Below are positions 52,555 through 59,509 of a stretch of DNA of 64,000 nt, one piece after another (positions within the stretch are counted from its first letter, which is position 1; each line of letters opens with the position of its first letter). This stretch comes from Prorocentrum cordatum (lineage: Eukaryota > Sar > Dinophyceae > Prorocentrales > Prorocentraceae), in assembly GCA_963575745.1 (NCBI GenBank), contig CAUYUJ010001747.1:5001-69000 (forward strand), written 5' to 3'. Under the pieces are notes generated by a model that saw only the letters and a list, made by a program, of their open reading frames with translations, had not been told where the DNA came from and ran no database searches. The translations under genes were made by a program, and so were the position numbers.

Positions 52555-52690
52555 CGATTTCGGTGGCCGGGCCCGGGTGCCCGGGTGCCCGGGTGCCCGG
52601 CGGTGCCCGGGTGCCCGGGTGGCCGGTGAGGTTGGTCGCCGATTTCGGTGGCTGGGCCCGGGTGCCCGGGTGCCCGGGTGCCCGGGGTGC
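52555..52690. repeat. GGTGCCCG octamer array with duplicated lead-in
   Basis: GGTGCCCG units form two blocks, each introduced by GCCGATTTCGGTGG (about 52554 and 52637). Confidence 0.85.
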
Positions 52691-52930
52691 CCAATAGCCC
52701 AATAGCATATAGCCCTATAGCCCTATAGTTTAATAGCCCCATAGCCCTATAGCCCTCTAGCCCTATAGCCCAACAGCCCTATAGCCCTATAGCCCTATAG
52801 CCCCATAGCCTTATAGCCCTATAGCCCTATAGCTCTACAGCCCTATAGCCCTATAGCCTTATAGCCCAATAGCCCTATAGCCCTATAGCCTCATAACCTT
52901 ATACCTTTATAGCCCTACAGCCCCATAGCC
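52690..52930. repeat. ATAGCCCT octamer array
   Basis: About 28 units of ATAGCCCT with single-base variants, ending 40 bp before the tyrosine-recombinase element. It is not the plant/alga-type telomere heptamer. Confidence 0.9.
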
Positions 52931-52969
52931 CCGACAAACATCTGATTGGTTTTTTTCTCTGGTGTCGTA

Positions 52970-53060
52970 TTGGCGGTTTGTAATTAAACACGTTGTGCAG
53001 AAGTCAGCAAGCCGACAGGGGACGGACGTGGGTCCGTCACCGTTTTTGCTCAAGCTTTTA
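52970..53060 (+). repeat. Split direct repeat A1
   Basis: 91 bp, matching A2 (59226-59316) at about 88 positions. It contains a perfect 7-bp inverted repeat, GACGGAC GTGG GTCCGTC (53021-53038), and ends in GCTCAAG. The 22-mer 53033-53054 matches the dinoflagellate spliced leader at 18 of 22 positions. Confidence 0.9.
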
Positions 53061-53062
53061 AT

Positions 53063-53291
53063 TTGCGGCCTCCGCCTATGCAATCCCTCGGGCGCATTCT
53101 CTCGGGGGCACACCACCTGGCCGCCATCGCCGGCAGGCTCGCATCGCAGTGGGCGAGCCAGGCCGGCAACTGTGTGGTGATCGCCAATAGCATCGGCGAC
53201 CTGAGGGTCGCCTTCATTTTTCTCTTCGCCGCAGGGGTGTTCCTGGGCTGCATCGGAGGGTGTCTCTGCTGCAAGGGCCTGGCTCTGAGCC
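53063..53291 (+). CDS. Possible small leader ORF with hydrophobic segment
   Basis: The frame starting at 53063, two bases after A1, encodes MQSLGRILSGAHHLAAIAGR and then VAFIFLFAAGVFLGCIGG, a likely membrane span. Beyond ~53290 the frame overlaps the next ORF in another phase and loses coding character. It may be the N-terminal part of the next ORF after a frameshift, or a separate small protein. Confidence 0.3.
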
Positions 53292-54719
53292 ATGGCCGCA
53301 TGGCGAGCTGGTCACAGGATCGGAGTCTTGTTGAAAGACGGAGAGGACTGGCAGACTCGCGTGCTCCTTTGTCCTGGTACTACCGCCGATGCCGAGAGCG
53401 ATCTCCAGATGACTGGCCTGAAAGCAGCGGGGAAGAACGGCAACATATGGTACGCTCTCACACCCGACGGGGACGTGTACATTCACGTGCTGGAACCCCC
53501 GGGAGTCCGGGGATCGGCGCTGTGCGATCAGATGGGCCTGCCCGAGCGGAGCGGGCCCTTGCAGTTCGGGAGGACGTGGCGAGCAGGAGGCAGGATCTAC
53601 GGACAGGAGTGGACCCCGACGCCAGAGGAGTTCGTCGACGCGCTGCAGTTCGCGCTGGGCGGCTCCTTGTTCGAGGCAGCCCCTCAAGTGGCGGACAAGA
53701 CGGTCTCGGTGCTGCGACGGATGAGCAAGAAGGGGCCGCTCCCAGCTGGCGCGGTCTTGGCTAGGGCAGCTCCTCCGAGTAGCTTTGTGCGTGGCTCGGG
53801 TGCCCTGCCATCCGCGGTGGGGATGCGCTGGCAGGTTCAGGCCGCCAGTGGCCCAACACCCGAGCGCCGCCCGCTGCAGGACTACGACGTGGACGAGTAC
53901 TGCACCGCGGGCGGCTTCGCGCTGGCATCTCAGGAGGGGGAGCTGCTCCTGCTGAGGGAGGTCGAGAGGTCCTCGCCGGAGGACGACACGGAGGTGGACG
54001 CCAGGCTCCTGCCGCTCGTGGAGGTCGAGGGCGTTCGCAAGCGGTACTTCAAGGACTCGCCCAAGGGGCTCACCGAGACGGCCTGGCGGGAGTGGCCCGT
54101 GCGCGGGCCACGTACGACTGTCTGGTGCGCCATTTTCGTGGGTGACCAGGACAGCCACCCACGCTCGAGACACACTAAGTGGAAGGCCGAGTGCGGTCTC
54201 ACGACTGCCGACGTCGGTGTTTCGGAGCACGAGTTGTGTATGCGAGTATTGGAGCTGGCCATCACCTACGACCAATTGAACATCGGGGAGTTGGCCAGCT
54301 TCGAGCTCATGCTCAGGCGCGCGCAGATGACGGAGTGGAGATACAGAGAGCGCGTGCTGGGGCGTCCACTCCTGGACGACACGGCGGAGGACGAGTTCCT
54401 CTACATGGGGACGGCGGAGACGAGAGGGCTGCTCATGGTGGCCCCGGAGCTGCAGGCTCACATCTCGGACGAGCTGCACCGCGAGTCGGCGGTGCTCAAG
54501 GAGAGGCGCAAGCTCCGCGAGGAGCGCCTGGCGTCCCGCGGGCTACCACCAGCTGGCGGCGGCGGGGGCTCGGCGTCCGCGGCAGCGATGGAGACGAAGA
54601 TCAAGCAGCAGGCGGCTGAGCTCTCGAGGCTCCAGGCGAAGCTCAACCACGGCGGCGGGGGCGACCCAGCCACAGGGGAGAGGCAGGCCGCGGCCAAGGG
54701 CCGCGGCCGAGGCACCTAG
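53292..54719 (+). CDS. Gag-position ORF of the tyrosine-recombinase element
   Basis: A 475-codon ORF, ATG at 53292. By position it should be the nucleocapsid protein. No zinc knuckle is visible. The N-terminal half is mixed alpha/beta in character (IWYALTPDGDVYIHVLEPPG); the C-terminal quarter is charged and helical (ISDELHRESAVLKERRKLRE), followed by METKIKQQAAELSRLQAKL, a short coiled coil, and a Gly/Arg-rich tail that could bind RNA. The assignment rests on context. Confidence 0.6.
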   Translation: MAAWRAGHRIGVLLKDGEDWQTRVLLCPGTTADAESDLQMTGLKAAGKNGNIWYALTPDGDVYIHVLEPPGVRGSALCDQMGLPERSGPLQFGRTWRAGGRIYGQEWTPTPEEFVDALQFALGGSLFEAAPQVADKTVSVLRRMSKKGPLPAGAVLARAAPPSSFVRGSGALPSAVGMRWQVQAASGPTPERRPLQDYDVDEYCTAGGFALASQEGELLLLREVERSSPEDDTEVDARLLPLVEVEGVRKRYFKDSPKGLTETAWREWPVRGPRTTVWCAIFVGDQDSHPRSRHTKWKAECGLTTADVGVSEHELCMRVLELAITYDQLNIGELASFELMLRRAQMTEWRYRERVLGRPLLDDTAEDEFLYMGTAETRGLLMVAPELQAHISDELHRESAVLKERRKLREERLASRGLPPAGGGGGSASAAAMETKIKQQAAELSRLQAKLNHGGGGDPATGERQAAAKGRGRGT

Positions 54720-54960
54720 TCGCCCTGATGATCGCGCCGCGGGAGCTCCTCCCTCTGAGGGGCCCTGCGGCTTCAGGCGCCTCGCCATCCGTGGCGGGCG
54801 TCAGCCGGGCTGTGCGCTCACGCGTTCGTCGTCGCGCAGCCTGCTCGTCCTGGGCCAATGAGATCATCGACACAGTCAAAAATTTGTACTCCCACGGCGA
54901 GGTACAGCAGCATCACTCCGTCTCAGCTGGGCAGCAGCTCGCCCTGGACGCCCGTCTCAG

Positions 54961-56617
54961 ATGATCGAGCCCGCGGCAGCCTTTCGAGTGCTGTGCGGAT
55001 CGGCGCCAGGGTATACTGAGCCCTCGGCAGAACATTCACCCTATCGACGAGGCGCAGTCTCGTTGCCGGCTCCTGGAGCTGACCTTGCTCGTGGCGACGT
55101 CTGTCTTCGAGGACCGGCAGTGCAAATGTGGACAGGGTGGCGAGACTGTCTCTTGCACCCCAACCAGGACCTCTCCGGGGCAGTGCGGCCGTACTCTGAC
55201 CCCAAGCTGATTCGGGACAGCGGCACGTACGCCGAGTTTTTGGTGGACATGGCACGTTCAGGGCTCGTCTCTTTCACGAGCGAGAGGCCATCCACCGTGG
55301 GGGTCTTCTTCGTAAAGAAAGGTCCAGATCGCCTTCGACTCATCCTGGACACTCGACGAGCAAACAAGCTGTTTTTGGATCCTTGCCACACCCAGCTCTC
55401 TACACCATCGAGCTGGTCCTCTCTGTACTTGCCACCCGAGGCGGAGCTGATGGTGTCTCAGACCGACGTCAACAACGCGTTCTATCGCATCCAGCTCCCC
55501 CCCGGCACGAACGACTACTTTATTTTGCCCAGCATCGACGCCAAGTGGATTTCCGAGGCCGCCCCTGATCTGGCCCCTGGTCTCCCCGCGGGCATCCGCA
55601 TCTCCCCTCGCATGGAGGTGCTGCCCATGGGGTTCAACTGGGCGCTGTTCTTCTGCCAGGAGATGGTCCGCAATGCCGCGGAGGACGCTGGCTTCGCTGA
55701 CGGGCAGATGTTCCTGGACCGCCACTCGGCCCCCGACATCGCCACCCAGCCGGGCGCCGCCGTGTACGTCGACGGCGTGGCCGTGGTGGGGGCGGACTTG
55801 CAGGCGGTCGAGGCCGGCGGAGTCGCCGTGGCCAAGCAGCTGGAGGAGCGCGGCCTCCAGGTCAAGGGGGTCGAAGGCCCCTCGGACTCCCAGACCTTCA
55901 CGGGGATGGAGTTCGATCGGACCTCCGGCCGCATCTCGCTCAGCCGCGAGAGGATCTGGAGGCTGCGCGCGGCCCTGCTGTTCGCTGCGGACCAGCGCTA
56001 CCTGACTGGGCGCCAGATGCGGCGCCTGGTCGGCCACTACACGTGGAGCGCGACCCTGCGGCGTGAGCTCCTCAGCGTCTTCAGCAGCGTCTACGCCTGG
56101 GCGGAGAAGGCGGGCGACAAGAGGTGGCGCCTGTGGCCTTCGGCCGAACGGGTGCTCCGCCAGGCCGCCGCCCTCGTGGCCTTCGCCTTCGCGGACCCCA
56201 AGCGCCCGTTCCACGCCACGGTCGTGGCGACCGACGCCTCAGGCGCCGGGCTGGACGACGCCGGCGGCTACGGCGTGGTCACGCAGGAGTGGCCCGTGGA
56301 GAAGGTCCGGCGCTGCTGCGGGCATGCCGAGAAGTGGCGCTACGGGGTGCAGGGGCTCGTCGCGGCCAGGGCGGCCGCGCTGGGCAGCCCCGCCGACCCC
56401 AGCTCGCCCCGCCCGACGGCGCAGAGCGGCGAGAGGACCACAGACTTCGAGAGCATGACGCGGGACGACATCGGGGCCTTCGAGAACTGGAAGCTGGCGT
56501 GCCGGGGCCGATGGGCCCGGGCCGAGGGCATCCTGAGGACCGAGGGCCGAGCATGCATGATCGGCCTCCGTCACGAGCTGAGGTCCACGAGCACGCACGG
56601 AAAACGTATACTTTTTT
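54961..56617 (+). CDS. Reverse transcriptase and RNase H, first frame
   Basis: DIRS-type RT: RLRLILDTRRANKLF, LMVSQTDVNNAFYRIQL (motif A, Asp at codon 169), LPMGFNWALFFCQEMV (motif B) and AAVYVDGVAVVG (motif C; the second Asp of YVDD is Gly at codon 272). Further on, FTGMEFDRTSGRISLSRERI and HYTWSATLRRELLSVFSSVY are family blocks. RNase H begins HATVVATDASGAGLDDAGGY, with the first catalytic Asp at codon 425. The reading frame is open but its final 15 codons after 56617 are off-frame: coding continues one base on as VDNMSVVLSLGTG. The shift falls in six T (56612-56617). The YVDG change could impair catalysis unless it is normal for this family. Confidence 0.9.
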
Positions 56618-57060
56618 CCTGTGGACAACATGAGTGTGGTATTGAGTTTGGGTACGGGTAGATCCAGCAGCCATCAGATGAACCGAGCGTGTCGTGAGCT
56701 TCTGTGTCTGTCAGTTGTTGCCAACCTCCAGGTCGTGGTGAGATGGGTCGCCTCTGAGTTGAATCCATCCGACCACGCGCCCCGACTCCCGGGCTCAGCC
56801 ATCTCGCTGGGCTGGGGTGGGCCTCGCGCGGCGGGGGGCGATGCTGCGCCGTCCGAGGCCGTGCTCGCCAGCCGCTTCGATGCCGAGCTGGAGAGCGCGG
56901 CCCGCAGCCTTGGGCCCGCCCTTGGCGGGGACGCCTGCGGCCGCCCCCTCGCCGGCCTGGGGGGCCAGCTCGCTGCTGAGGAGGCCAGGCTCGGCACCGC
57001 CGCCGCGGAGGCCGGTGAGCTCAGCGACAGCTCCTCCAGCTCGGGGGAGAGCTGGCCAGC
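56618..57060 (+). CDS. RNase H C-terminus and Ser-rich tail, shifted frame
   Basis: VDNMSVVLSLGTGRSSSHQM followed by VVVRWVASELNPSDHAPRL is the C-terminal half of the RNase H: the DNMS Asp and the NPSDH late acidic motif of DIRS-like RNases H. A Gly/Ala-rich and Ser-rich region follows (GELSDSSSSSGESW). It overlaps the start of the recombinase ORF. The frame stays open to 59056, but 57150-58198 in this phase is overprinted by the recombinase and is low-complexity. Confidence 0.75.
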
Positions 57061-58220
57061 CGGCCCCAGCGGCAGCGACGGCCAGGCGCCGCCGCGCACG
57101 GGGCGGGCCGACTGCGGCGCGATCGACTCGAGCAGCATCACACGATCTGCGAGCCCGCCGCGGACAGCAGCGACGGCAGCACCAGGCGCGGGAGATCGCC
57201 GAGGCCCGGCGCCACGGCTTCACCAGCCTCCAGATGGCCAAGATAGGGCCTCGCTCCCGCGCTCAGTACCAGAAGTTTCACCAGGCCTTCCTGGAGTGGA
57301 GCAGCCAGGAGGGTCAGCCCCGGGACACCGACCTCCAGATCGACTGGGCCCTCAGCAGGTACATGGACTACCTGTACTACGAGGGCTTCAACGCGGACGC
57401 GGGCGAGAAGGTGCTGGCGGCTGTGGCCTTCCACGGCCCAGTGGAGGGCCTGGAGCTTCCAGGAGCTCGCCGGGCGCTGGCGGGGTTCCGGCGCCGGGCG
57501 AGCGCGAGGACCCGCAGCCCCCTGCCGCTGGCGGGCGTGATGGCCATCGTGGGGGCAGCAGCGGCCGACGGCCAGCTCCCCTTTGCCCTGGGGCTGGTGC
57601 TGGCGTGGGAGGCCTACCTCAGGCTGCCGTCCGACCTCGTGAGCATGGTGGGCGCCTCTCTGGTCAGGCCAGCCGCCCGGAGCCCCCAGGCGCGCTGGGG
57701 CCTGCTCCTGTTTCCTCAGGAGGGGGAGGCGCGCAGCAAGATGGGGCACTACGACGAGGGCATCATGCTGGACGGCCAGTTCGGATCCACGCTAGCGCCT
57801 TTCCTGCGCCGGCTGAAGGCCCAGACCGCCGACGCCAGCCCGCTGTGGTCCTTCTCGAGCGCCACCTTCAGACGCCTGTTCAACGAGTACGCCGCGAAGG
57901 TCAGCCTCGGAGGCAAGAACCCCTACCAGGTCAGGCACGGGGGAGCCTCTCTGGACGCCCTAGAGTGCCGGCGCAGCCTGAAGGAAATCCAGGAGCGGCT
58001 CCGCCACCTGTGCGAGTCCAGCACCCGTCGGTGCAAGAAGGGGACCAGGTACCTGGCCGAGGTCAACAACCTCGACAGCCGGGCCCGGTCCTACGGCGAG
58101 CAGGTCCTCAGGCAGCTCGACGGGGTGCTGAGCGGGCGGGTCCGCCTCCCGCCGCCGCCGGCCCTCGCCGACGCCGCGGGCTGCGGACGGGCGCCGCGAT
58201 GCGCCAAGGCGACGCCCTAG
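56817..58220 (+). CDS. Tyrosine recombinase
   Basis: A 467-codon frame; the first ~110 residues are Arg/Pro-rich and overprint the RNase H tail, so the true start may be near IAEARRHGFTSLQMAKIGPR (about 57193). The N-terminal core-binding region (SRAQYQKFHQAFLEW, YMDYLYYEGF) and the catalytic domain follow. Candidate active-site residues: Arg 269 in EAYLRLPSDL, YQVRH with Arg 373 (Tyr replaces the usual His of HXXR), His 397 in RLRHL and nucleophile Tyr 412 in KGTRYL. DIRS-order elements use such enzymes to insert a circular DNA intermediate, which fits the split direct repeats. The stop at 58218-58220 overlaps the methyltransferase start by 22 bases. Confidence 0.85.
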   Translation: MGLARRGAMLRRPRPCSPAASMPSWRARPAALGPPLAGTPAAAPSPAWGASSLLRRPGSAPPPRRPVSSATAPPARGRAGQPAPAAATARRRRARGGPTAARSTRAASHDLRARRGQQRRQHQAREIAEARRHGFTSLQMAKIGPRSRAQYQKFHQAFLEWSSQEGQPRDTDLQIDWALSRYMDYLYYEGFNADAGEKVLAAVAFHGPVEGLELPGARRALAGFRRRASARTRSPLPLAGVMAIVGAAAADGQLPFALGLVLAWEAYLRLPSDLVSMVGASLVRPAARSPQARWGLLLFPQEGEARSKMGHYDEGIMLDGQFGSTLAPFLRRLKAQTADASPLWSFSSATFRRLFNEYAAKVSLGGKNPYQVRHGGASLDALECRRSLKEIQERLRHLCESSTRRCKKGTRYLAEVNNLDSRARSYGEQVLRQLDGVLSGRVRLPPPPALADAAGCGRAPRCAKATP

Positions 58221-59056
58221 AGGCGGTGGAGCGGGCCTCGGACACCAAGGTGATCCGCCACCTCCGTCAGGGGCTCGCCTGGGCCAGCAGGCGAGGCCGG
58301 CGCCGTGGGCAGGTGTTCCTTGACTTGTTCAGCGGTGCCGGCGGCGTCGCCAAGGCCCTCGAGCGCCGCGGCGACGACGGTTGCCTCCAGATCGACATGG
58401 AGGCCGACGTAGCTTTCGACCTCACCCGCCGCTCGGCCCAGCAGCTCATCTTGGGCTGGATGGCCGGCAGGCGCGTGCGAGGGCTCTGGATCGTTTTTCC
58501 ATGCGCGACCTGGTCTGCAGCCTCACGGCACACGTACCGTCGCCCCGGAGAACTCCGTGGCCGAGCGAATTTGACAGCAGAGCAAGAGCACAAAGTGAGC
58601 CTTGGTAATAAGACCCTTGCCGCCACTGTCCGTTTCATCAGAGCTGCAATCATGAGACAGATCCCAGCTGTGATCGAGAATCCTCTCACAAGCATGGCCT
58701 GGCAAGTTCCCGACATGAAGAGGCTAATGGCGCACCGCAGTTGTAAGATAGCAGTTGTAGACCAGTGCATGTTGAACACCCCCTGGAAGAAGCCCACAAA
58801 ACTTGCAGGCTGGAATGTTGCTGAACCGCCCGCCCCGCTCGTCCAAAGGTGTCGTGGGAAGTCTCTGTGCTGCAAGACCCTCCGGCCTCGCCTCGCCCTC
58901 GAAGGTAGCCGGCGGACCGCCTTGGCTCGGGCCTATCCGCGGGGGCTGGCGGAAGCAGGGGCTCGATGGCTGGTCACTTCAGCCGATAGTATCGAGCACG
59001 CACACGTAGGGAGGTTGTTGATTGAATTATCTCGTGCTCTGAGCTGCAGTTGCTAA
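58199..59056 (+). CDS. C5-cytosine methyltransferase-like protein of the element
   Basis: 285 residues from ATG 58199, in the same phase as the RNase H tail. QVFLDLFSGAGGVAKAL (Asp 42, GAGG 46-49) is motif I, the SAM-binding loop of C5 methyltransferases. LWIVFPCATWSAASRH has the motif IV Pro-Cys, with catalytic Cys at 102. VIENPLTSMAW, Glu 160-Asn 161, fits motif VI with Pro for Val. LQIDMEADVAFDL has the acidic residue of motif II. Motifs IX-X and a target-recognition domain are not evident, and the protein is short for the family. It starts 22 bases before the recombinase stop, as overlapping ORFs of one transcript do. DIRS elements often carry a DAM-type N6-adenine methyltransferase-like domain; this one instead looks C5-like. 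Confidence 0.75.
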   Translation: MRQGDALEAVERASDTKVIRHLRQGLAWASRRGRRRGQVFLDLFSGAGGVAKALERRGDDGCLQIDMEADVAFDLTRRSAQQLILGWMAGRRVRGLWIVFPCATWSAASRHTYRRPGELRGRANLTAEQEHKVSLGNKTLAATVRFIRAAIMRQIPAVIENPLTSMAWQVPDMKRLMAHRSCKIAVVDQCMLNTPWKKPTKLAGWNVAEPPAPLVQRCRGKSLCCKTLRPRLALEGSRRTALARAYPRGLAEAGARWLVTSADSIEHAHVGRLLIELSRALSCSC

Positions 59057-59119
59057 TTTAACCCTTGCTTTGTAAGAATGTGAGTGATTGCGGCACGGCC
59101 AGTAACATGAATGGGCTGT

Positions 59120-59224
59120 GGGGGGCTTTCCCCGAATAATCCTTCTGCCGACTCGGGCCCCAGAGACGGCTCGGTCGCAAGTCTCGTGACAGCATAGGTT
59201 CTCCTGGTTGCGAAAACAGTGCGC
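59120..59224 (+). repeat. Split direct repeat B1
   Basis: 105 bp, matching B2 (59357-59461) at 104 positions; the one difference is GTTGCGAAA versus GTTGCAAAA. It lies 1 bp before A2. Confidence 0.95.
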
Positions 59225-59225
59225 G

Positions 59226-59316
59226 TTGGCGGTTTGTAATTAAACACGTTGTGCAGAAGTCAGCAAGCCGACAGGGGGCGGACGTGGGTCCGTCACCGTT
59301 TCTGCTCAAGTTTTTA
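59226..59316 (+). repeat. Split direct repeat A2
   Basis: 91-bp copy of A1 with three substitutions. The internal hairpin is reduced to a shorter stem by the A-to-G change. Confidence 0.95.
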
Positions 59317-59356
59317 CCACCTCCTCCTCTCCTCCTCTTTCTTGCGCTCTCACGGC

Positions 59357-59457
59357 GGGGGGCTTTCCCCGAATAATCCTTCTGCCGACTCGGGCCCCAG
59401 AGACGGCTCGGTCGCAAGTCTCGTGACAGCATAGGTTCTCCTGGTTGCAAAAACAGT

Positions 59458-59461
<4 letters not shown>
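59357..59461 (+). repeat. Split direct repeat B2, right end of element
   Basis: Second copy of the B repeat. Similarity stops exactly where the TA microsatellite begins, which defines the element's right end. Confidence 0.95.

Positions 59462-59503
<42 letters not shown>
59462..59503. repeat. TA microsatellite
   Basis: About 20 TA units directly after B2, then CACACACC. Confidence 0.95.

Positions 59504-59509
<6 letters not shown>

Follow-up and report, generated by a model that had tools for sequence, protein, structure and literature searches.

Retrotransposons that combine a tyrosine recombinase (YR) with a cytosine methyltransferase (MTase) are a known kind, because SymbioDIRS-Dnmt3 of Symbiodinium has already been published (PMC5890265). 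In that account, de Mendoza et al. (2018) describe an A-coding-B-A-B repeat arrangement, a Dnmt3 domain in Pol and purifying selection, and CG methylation activity is reported for retrotransposon DNA methyltransferases (DNMTs); the search used PF00145, and DIRS elements lacking DNMTs are reported as well (PMC5890265). DIRS1-like elements are described as having GAG, YR and a Pol with the order reverse transcriptase (RT)-RNase H-methyltransferase (MT), half of the 28 annotated elements showing an extensive overlap of Pol and YR, PAT as having split direct repeats, and Ngaro and Viper as devoid of an MT and usually without overlaps between open reading frames (ORFs) (PMC3266345); the MT of DIRS1 is described as Dam-like (PMC5890265). 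Here, we analyse a DIRS-order element in a 64,000-nucleotide stretch of the dinoflagellate Prorocentrum cordatum (assembly GCA_963575745.1, contig CAUYUJ010001747.1, positions 5,001 to 69,000; G000:C1747:5001-69000 in our numbering), hereafter the window. The element lies between split direct repeats and encodes a C5-methyltransferase-like domain, which in related families is the C-terminal part of the frame encoding RT and RNase H.

As far as the published accounts describe the known elements, the window family resembles SymbioDIRS-Dnmt3 in being a dinoflagellate DIRS-type element with an A-coding-B-A-B layout, a cytosine-MTase domain in the RT polyprotein and purifying selection on that domain. 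However, the SymbioDIRS-Dnmt3 domain is detected by PF00145 and belongs to the Dnmt3 clade, and its YR is a separate ORF, whereas the window MTase stays below the PF00145 cut-off and thus goes unrecognised by that model, bears phage-like motifs and accompanies a nested YR. With DIRS1-like elements the window family shares the RT-RNase H-MT order and the Pol/YR overlap, but DIRS1 is bounded by inverted terminal repeats and contains internal complementary regions, whereas the window element ends with direct repeats only, the inverted pairs found being (TA)n; the Dam-like MT of DIRS1 is structurally unrelated to C5 enzymes, whereas the MT of the window family is C5-like. Split direct repeats are a feature of Ngaro and PAT, which the window element resembles in this respect; unlike Ngaro as described, it has an MTase in all copies examined and a YR overlapping the RT-MTase frame. 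The domain itself has the LDLF-G, PPC-x-x-FS, ENP and KPT motifs of phage-type C5 methylases (PHROG 757; HFTV1 gp60, MG550112.1), which are free-standing genes 21–27% identical to the window MTase (P0001). In the open-licence PubMed Central literature, nothing closer was found for the phage-type lineage, the nested YR or the three domain placements described below, and apparently new here are a Pfam-cryptic phage-type MTase lineage, the nested layout and the three domain positions.

The methyltransferase domain and the frame that carries it

The preliminary description of the locus had proposed a C5-methyltransferase-like ORF of 285 residues overlapping the YR by 22 bases. The length and the overlap are as described there, and sequence motifs and predicted fold support the methyltransferase assignment. 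An AlphaFold2 model of the domain has a predicted local distance difference test score (pLDDT) of 89.3 and a predicted template modelling score (pTM) of 0.88, and all 50 of the PDB rows listed as structure matches to it are C5 MTases. In the family alignment, G46 of motif I, Cys102 of motif IV and Glu160 of motif VI are each invariant (23/23); the motif IV Cys and the motif VI Glu are the catalytic pair of C5 enzymes. The domain also matches phrog_757 (E 2.4e-4). A sequence search of PDB gave no match for P0001 and, for the MTase profile, only unrelated weak matches; an NCBIfam search gave none; and among viral contigs scanned with a pattern, 13 stretches matched and none was confirmed. Fold and motifs thus agree in pointing to a domain of the C5-cytosine type, probably from a divergent phage-like lineage that the curated PF00145 cut-off misses.

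The MTase is constant among the listed relatives of the window YR. We searched the genome (4,128,499,153 bases in 21,875 contigs) with the YR protein and obtained at least 92 matches, a few elements being counted twice; 91 of 528,436 candidates were scored, and the listed rows are the YRs closest to that of the window. The MTase protein gave at least 136 matches, about 18 at 70–100% identity and the rest at 35–44% (136 of 10,972 first-look candidates scored, all 136 matching). For 77 of the 92 listed YRs, an MTase match is listed at −100 to +1500 bases downstream, in the same orientation, and the DNA following each of the remaining 15 contains MTase sequence in at least one frame (15/15), with an empty other-strand control. 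The MTase is therefore no chance juxtaposition with the element, a possibility that we rejected since the domain follows every listed YR relative examined; the result speaks for this clade, not for every YR element of the genome. A YR family without the MTase was sought, and L088 and L090 (G000:C3718:24300-29200) have none within 5 kb, but their YR is distant and may not belong to a retrotransposon. The YR-like domain in these two loci ends a giant open frame, listed at 3230 amino acids (aa).

In related families, one frame encodes RT, RNase H and, at its C-terminus, the MTase, and the YR is nested inside this stretch in a second frame. Specifically, in three other families (L043, L044 and L045, with MTases 37–43% identical), a single open frame (1425, 1517 and 1473 aa, respectively) runs from RT-RNase H through the MTase and encloses the YR, which is read in a different frame; in L046, the RT and MTase frames agree, with a stop between them. 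The stand-alone MTase gene implied by the preliminary description is therefore not supported. An RT search of the genome gave at least 83 matches (64 of 15,860 candidates scored), which were paired with the 136 listed MTase matches: of the 44 pairs no more than 3.5 kb apart, 33 share a frame and 6 and 5 fall in the other frames, and for 22 pairs an identical open-frame length is listed for RT and MTase. When four YRs were shuffled synonymously (5000 times each), the overlapping frame was stop-free in 1.04%, 0.12%, 0.44% and 0.00% of shuffles, compared with 4/4 for the real YRs; the four families are related and thus not fully independent.

The MTase is under purifying selection and is kept as well as gag. 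The pooled ratio of nonsynonymous to synonymous differences (pN/pS) among window-family loci, from 91 pairwise comparisons per gene, is 0.20 for gag, 0.34 for RT, 0.42 for YR and 0.23 for MTase, with single pairs up to 0.79–1.31. Between copies (window 53292-58220), pS in RT and YR is about half that of gag and MTase. Low YR pS was rejected as proof of double coding, because RT shows the same low value (0.121, versus 0.123 for YR) without a known overlap.

Proposed mechanism, alternatives and placements of the domain

The layout, copy number, presence of the MTase in listed relatives, modelled fold, Cys/Glu pair, purifying selection and open frame form the observed base of a reading that we consider probable: a DIRS-order split-repeat element whose RT-RNase H polyprotein ends in a divergent phage-like C5-type MTase, with the YR nested over the linker and the MTase methylating the circular DNA as it is made. 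The A1/B1-A2-B2 repeats would let the RNA be reverse-transcribed into circular DNA, cytosines in the nascent DNA would be methylated by the MTase at the end of the RT polyprotein, and the YR would insert the circle by recombination, without target duplication. The methyl mark would most likely make the new DNA look like the host's own, or shield it from editing or degradation, by analogy with the proposal made for SymbioDIRS-Dnmt3.

Several observations weigh against parts of this reading. PF00145 reaches only 12.1 bits with P0001 against a cut-off of 22 and matches only 4 of the 23 family rows at E<=1 (best 1.5e-4), and the adenine-MTase model PF02086 weakly matches 6 of 23 (best 0.021). Motif VI reads ENP rather than ENV, and L059, a copy outside the alignment, has Ala at the motif IV Cys. 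A trace of self-methylation, as CpG depletion or CpG transitions between copies, was not found: the element's CpG observed/expected ratio of 0.93 compares with 0.89 for the remaining window sequence, and copies differ by CpG-to-TpG/CpA changes at 7.3%, barely above the GpC control (6.3%); depletion being absent, it was dropped as such a trace. The CpG counts show no sign of the marking or protection of the circular intermediate or inserted copy that the preliminary description had proposed. Moreover, 11 of the 44 RT/MTase pairs are in different frames, and gag and RT, too, have somewhat fewer stops in the corresponding frame than expected (53 seen versus 87.0 expected; six genes, 1000 shuffles), and part of the effect in the YR is therefore general. 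The depletion in gag and RT never goes down to zero, and scaling by the gag/RT factor gives, as an arithmetic estimate, about 13.5 stops expected over the four YRs versus 0 seen.

The weak PF02086 matches and the lack of a CpG signature could fit a domain that keeps the fold but methylates RNA, protein or adenine, or only binds nucleic acid, as could motif VIII, which departs in the family alignment from the QxRxR usual in C5 MTases. Set against the invariant Cys and Glu and the uniform C5 identity of the listed PDB rows, this seems unlikely; a Dam-like adenine MT as in DIRS1 was rejected, since the model matches C5 enzymes; the weak PF02086 matches count against this rejection. Another possibility, that the MTase is a separate protein whose translation re-initiates at the ATG at 58199 once the YR stop is passed, draws on the window copy, where this ATG opens the ORF that overlaps the YR end, and on the single MTase-YR frame relation kept in 60 of the 77 listed pairs. 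However, the ATG is not conserved, L032 of the same family having Thr there, in L043, L044 and L045 the linker has no Met directly ahead of the MTase, and the frame is open back to the RT in 22 copies, beyond codon-usage expectation, which makes separate translation quite improbable. That the element is of the ordinary SymbioDIRS-Dnmt3 kind with a fast-evolved Dnmt3 is very unlikely, since the published elements were found with PF00145, which misses the window domain, and the ENP and KPT motifs are common to phage enzymes.

The C5-type MTase also occurs at other positions. A search with the MTase profile (8000 candidates scored) returned at least 52 proteins, including one named Polarella glacialis and one, Skav227574, whose gene name is read as Fugacium kawagutii; 10 of the 52 were scanned and gave no Pfam match at E<=0.1. 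P0006, P0010 and P0012 have the MTase followed by a YR-like domain in a single ORF, and P0006 and P0012 start in RNase H. The YR part of relatives with this MTase-YR order is related to the window YR (HHalign E 6.1e-8), and P0006 has 58 matches in the window's genome, 10 to its MTase part and 48 to its YR part. Two of these MTase loci, L085 and L086, have the MTase by profile (E 3.8e-54 and 7.8e-55); in the L086 translation, one RNase H block (ATDAS) precedes it and the others (QEMRT, LCDS, NPAD) follow it. Downstream of L086, a YR is recognised by profile (E 7.2e-13), and a perfect pair of 155-bp direct repeats is present. A tree of 38 MTase domains contains three groups fitting the three placements, namely the window type with P0002 (support 98/96), the RNase H-YR type (100/99) and the in-RNase H type (100/99), the latter two joining weakly (91/70); the deep order is unsure through long branches and phage rows. 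A LINE origin of P0003 and P0004, raised by a GEAxNPGP motif, was dropped, since longer relatives show the MTase and then the YR.

We infer, with confidence evenly balanced, that a phage-type C5 MTase, apart from Dnmt3, entered dinoflagellate YR retrotransposons before the split of the Prorocentrum and Symbiodinium lineages, became a standard part and moved among three positions (inside RNase H, between RNase H and YR, and after YR), giving in the window's clade a 1.4–1.6 kb double-coded stretch with the YR in the second frame; published 'DIRS lacking DNMT' may then partly be cryptic carriers. MTase-carrying retrotransposons bear on the heavy methylation of dinoflagellate genomes and on host evasion by mobile DNA. 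If a second, Pfam-invisible lineage is indeed fixed in an abundant element class, PF00145 counts miss it, and comparisons of carriers with 'non-carriers' are wrong. The three placements of one domain, and the YR nested in another frame, are natural experiments on the role of the domain in the RT complex.

Repeats, copies and decay of the window element

Table 1. Features of the element, in window coordinates
Feature	Position	Strand	Remarks
A1, left split direct repeat, 91 bp	52970-53060	+	97% identical to A2
ORF1, 475 aa, gag-like by position only	53292-54719	+	pN/pS 0.20 among close copies
RT and first part of RNase H	54961-56661	+	PF00078 match below cut-off; 43–50% identity to RTs of four other families
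Open frame, 811 aa, from RNase H tail through YR region to MTase end	56621-59056	+	continuous with RT in L043, L044, L045; stop-free across YR
YR, nested in another frame; Cys for the catalytic-type Tyr in the window copy	56817-58220	+	
C5-methyltransferase-like domain (MTase), 285-aa ORF	58199-59056	+	motif I LDLFSGAGG, motif IV PCATWS, motif VI ENP; predicted fold
B1, 105 bp	59120-59224	+	99% identical to B2
A2, 91 bp	59226-59316	+	
B2, 105 bp, right end of element	59357-59461	+	junctions of 12 right ends

The A1-ORFs-B1-A2-B2 layout was as claimed in the preliminary description, including repeat sizes and identities (Table 1). The GC content of the window is 50.7–73.1% (2-kb steps). Within it, a 29-base stretch of A occurs exactly twice, compared with a mean of 0.00 in 100 shuffles, which is more than chance would give. 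A genome search with B1-A2-B2 gave 27 matches (27/27 candidates scored), comprising 12 whole 3′ ends, 14 A1 repeats and one partial B. There are at least 14 close copies, window included, with A1 at the left end of the 13 others; 12 of the 14 have all four repeats, the 11 besides the window in the same order, while L041 has A1 only and L042 has A1 and part of B1. The ends of the copy on C20778 are 24.8 kb apart, and its DNA was taken in two pieces. A check of further copies, as suggested earlier, showed MTase sequence in all 14, in several broken across frames. L043–L046 and L089 have B pairs of their own, and L044 has A and B pairs.

The preliminary description's RT-RNase H is indicated by conserved blocks of the RT and acidic blocks of the RNase H aligned in five families (window, L043–L046), but the RNase H of the window copy is broken, going out of frame at about 56620-56660. 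PF00078 matches the window RT with E 0.0061 and 16.7 bits (cut-off 29.6), spanning profile positions 3–185 of 205; no profile match was obtained for the window RNase H, no Pfam YR match for the window YR and no Pfam match at E<=1 for ORF1. The RNase H tail, found by pattern in 11 loci, is continuous with the upstream part in nine and not in two (window, L029). Nine residues past the LRH histidine, the YR residue is Tyr in nine of the 13 loci and Cys in the other four (window, L029, L035, L038). The R-H-R-H-Y set is thus present at family level and incomplete in the window, where the tyrosine claimed earlier must correspond to the invariant Tyr of the RYL that follows. The element is complete in structure, as had been proposed, but not intact, and judging from its sequence the copy is very likely dead, because the RNase H tail has lost its frame and Cys replaces the YR Tyr. 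Seven of the eight best matches among close copies have TAA inside the window's MTase span, and its last ~10 residues therefore look like read-through past the family stop.

The active-site block of RTs is usually YxDD; it is YVDG in all five aligned families (window, L043–L046) and FMDD in the L086 family. Judged by eye, 12 of the 14 copies are embedded in, or adjoin, simple repeats of two or three nucleotides, for example (TA)n, (CA)n and GATGA, the exceptions being L032 and L041; these flanks (window 59462-59507, L029–L042) suggest an insertion preference for simple repeats. Classical PF00145 domains also occur in the genome (at least 129 matches, 123 of 3988 candidates scored), many in near-identical frames of 383–478 aa, and one (L087 2031-3233, E 1.9e-43) stands beside unidentified ORFs; another mobile DNMT family is likely to be present. 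In the window, an array of 8-bp repeats (TAGCCCTA-like) at 52660-52963 stops just before A1.

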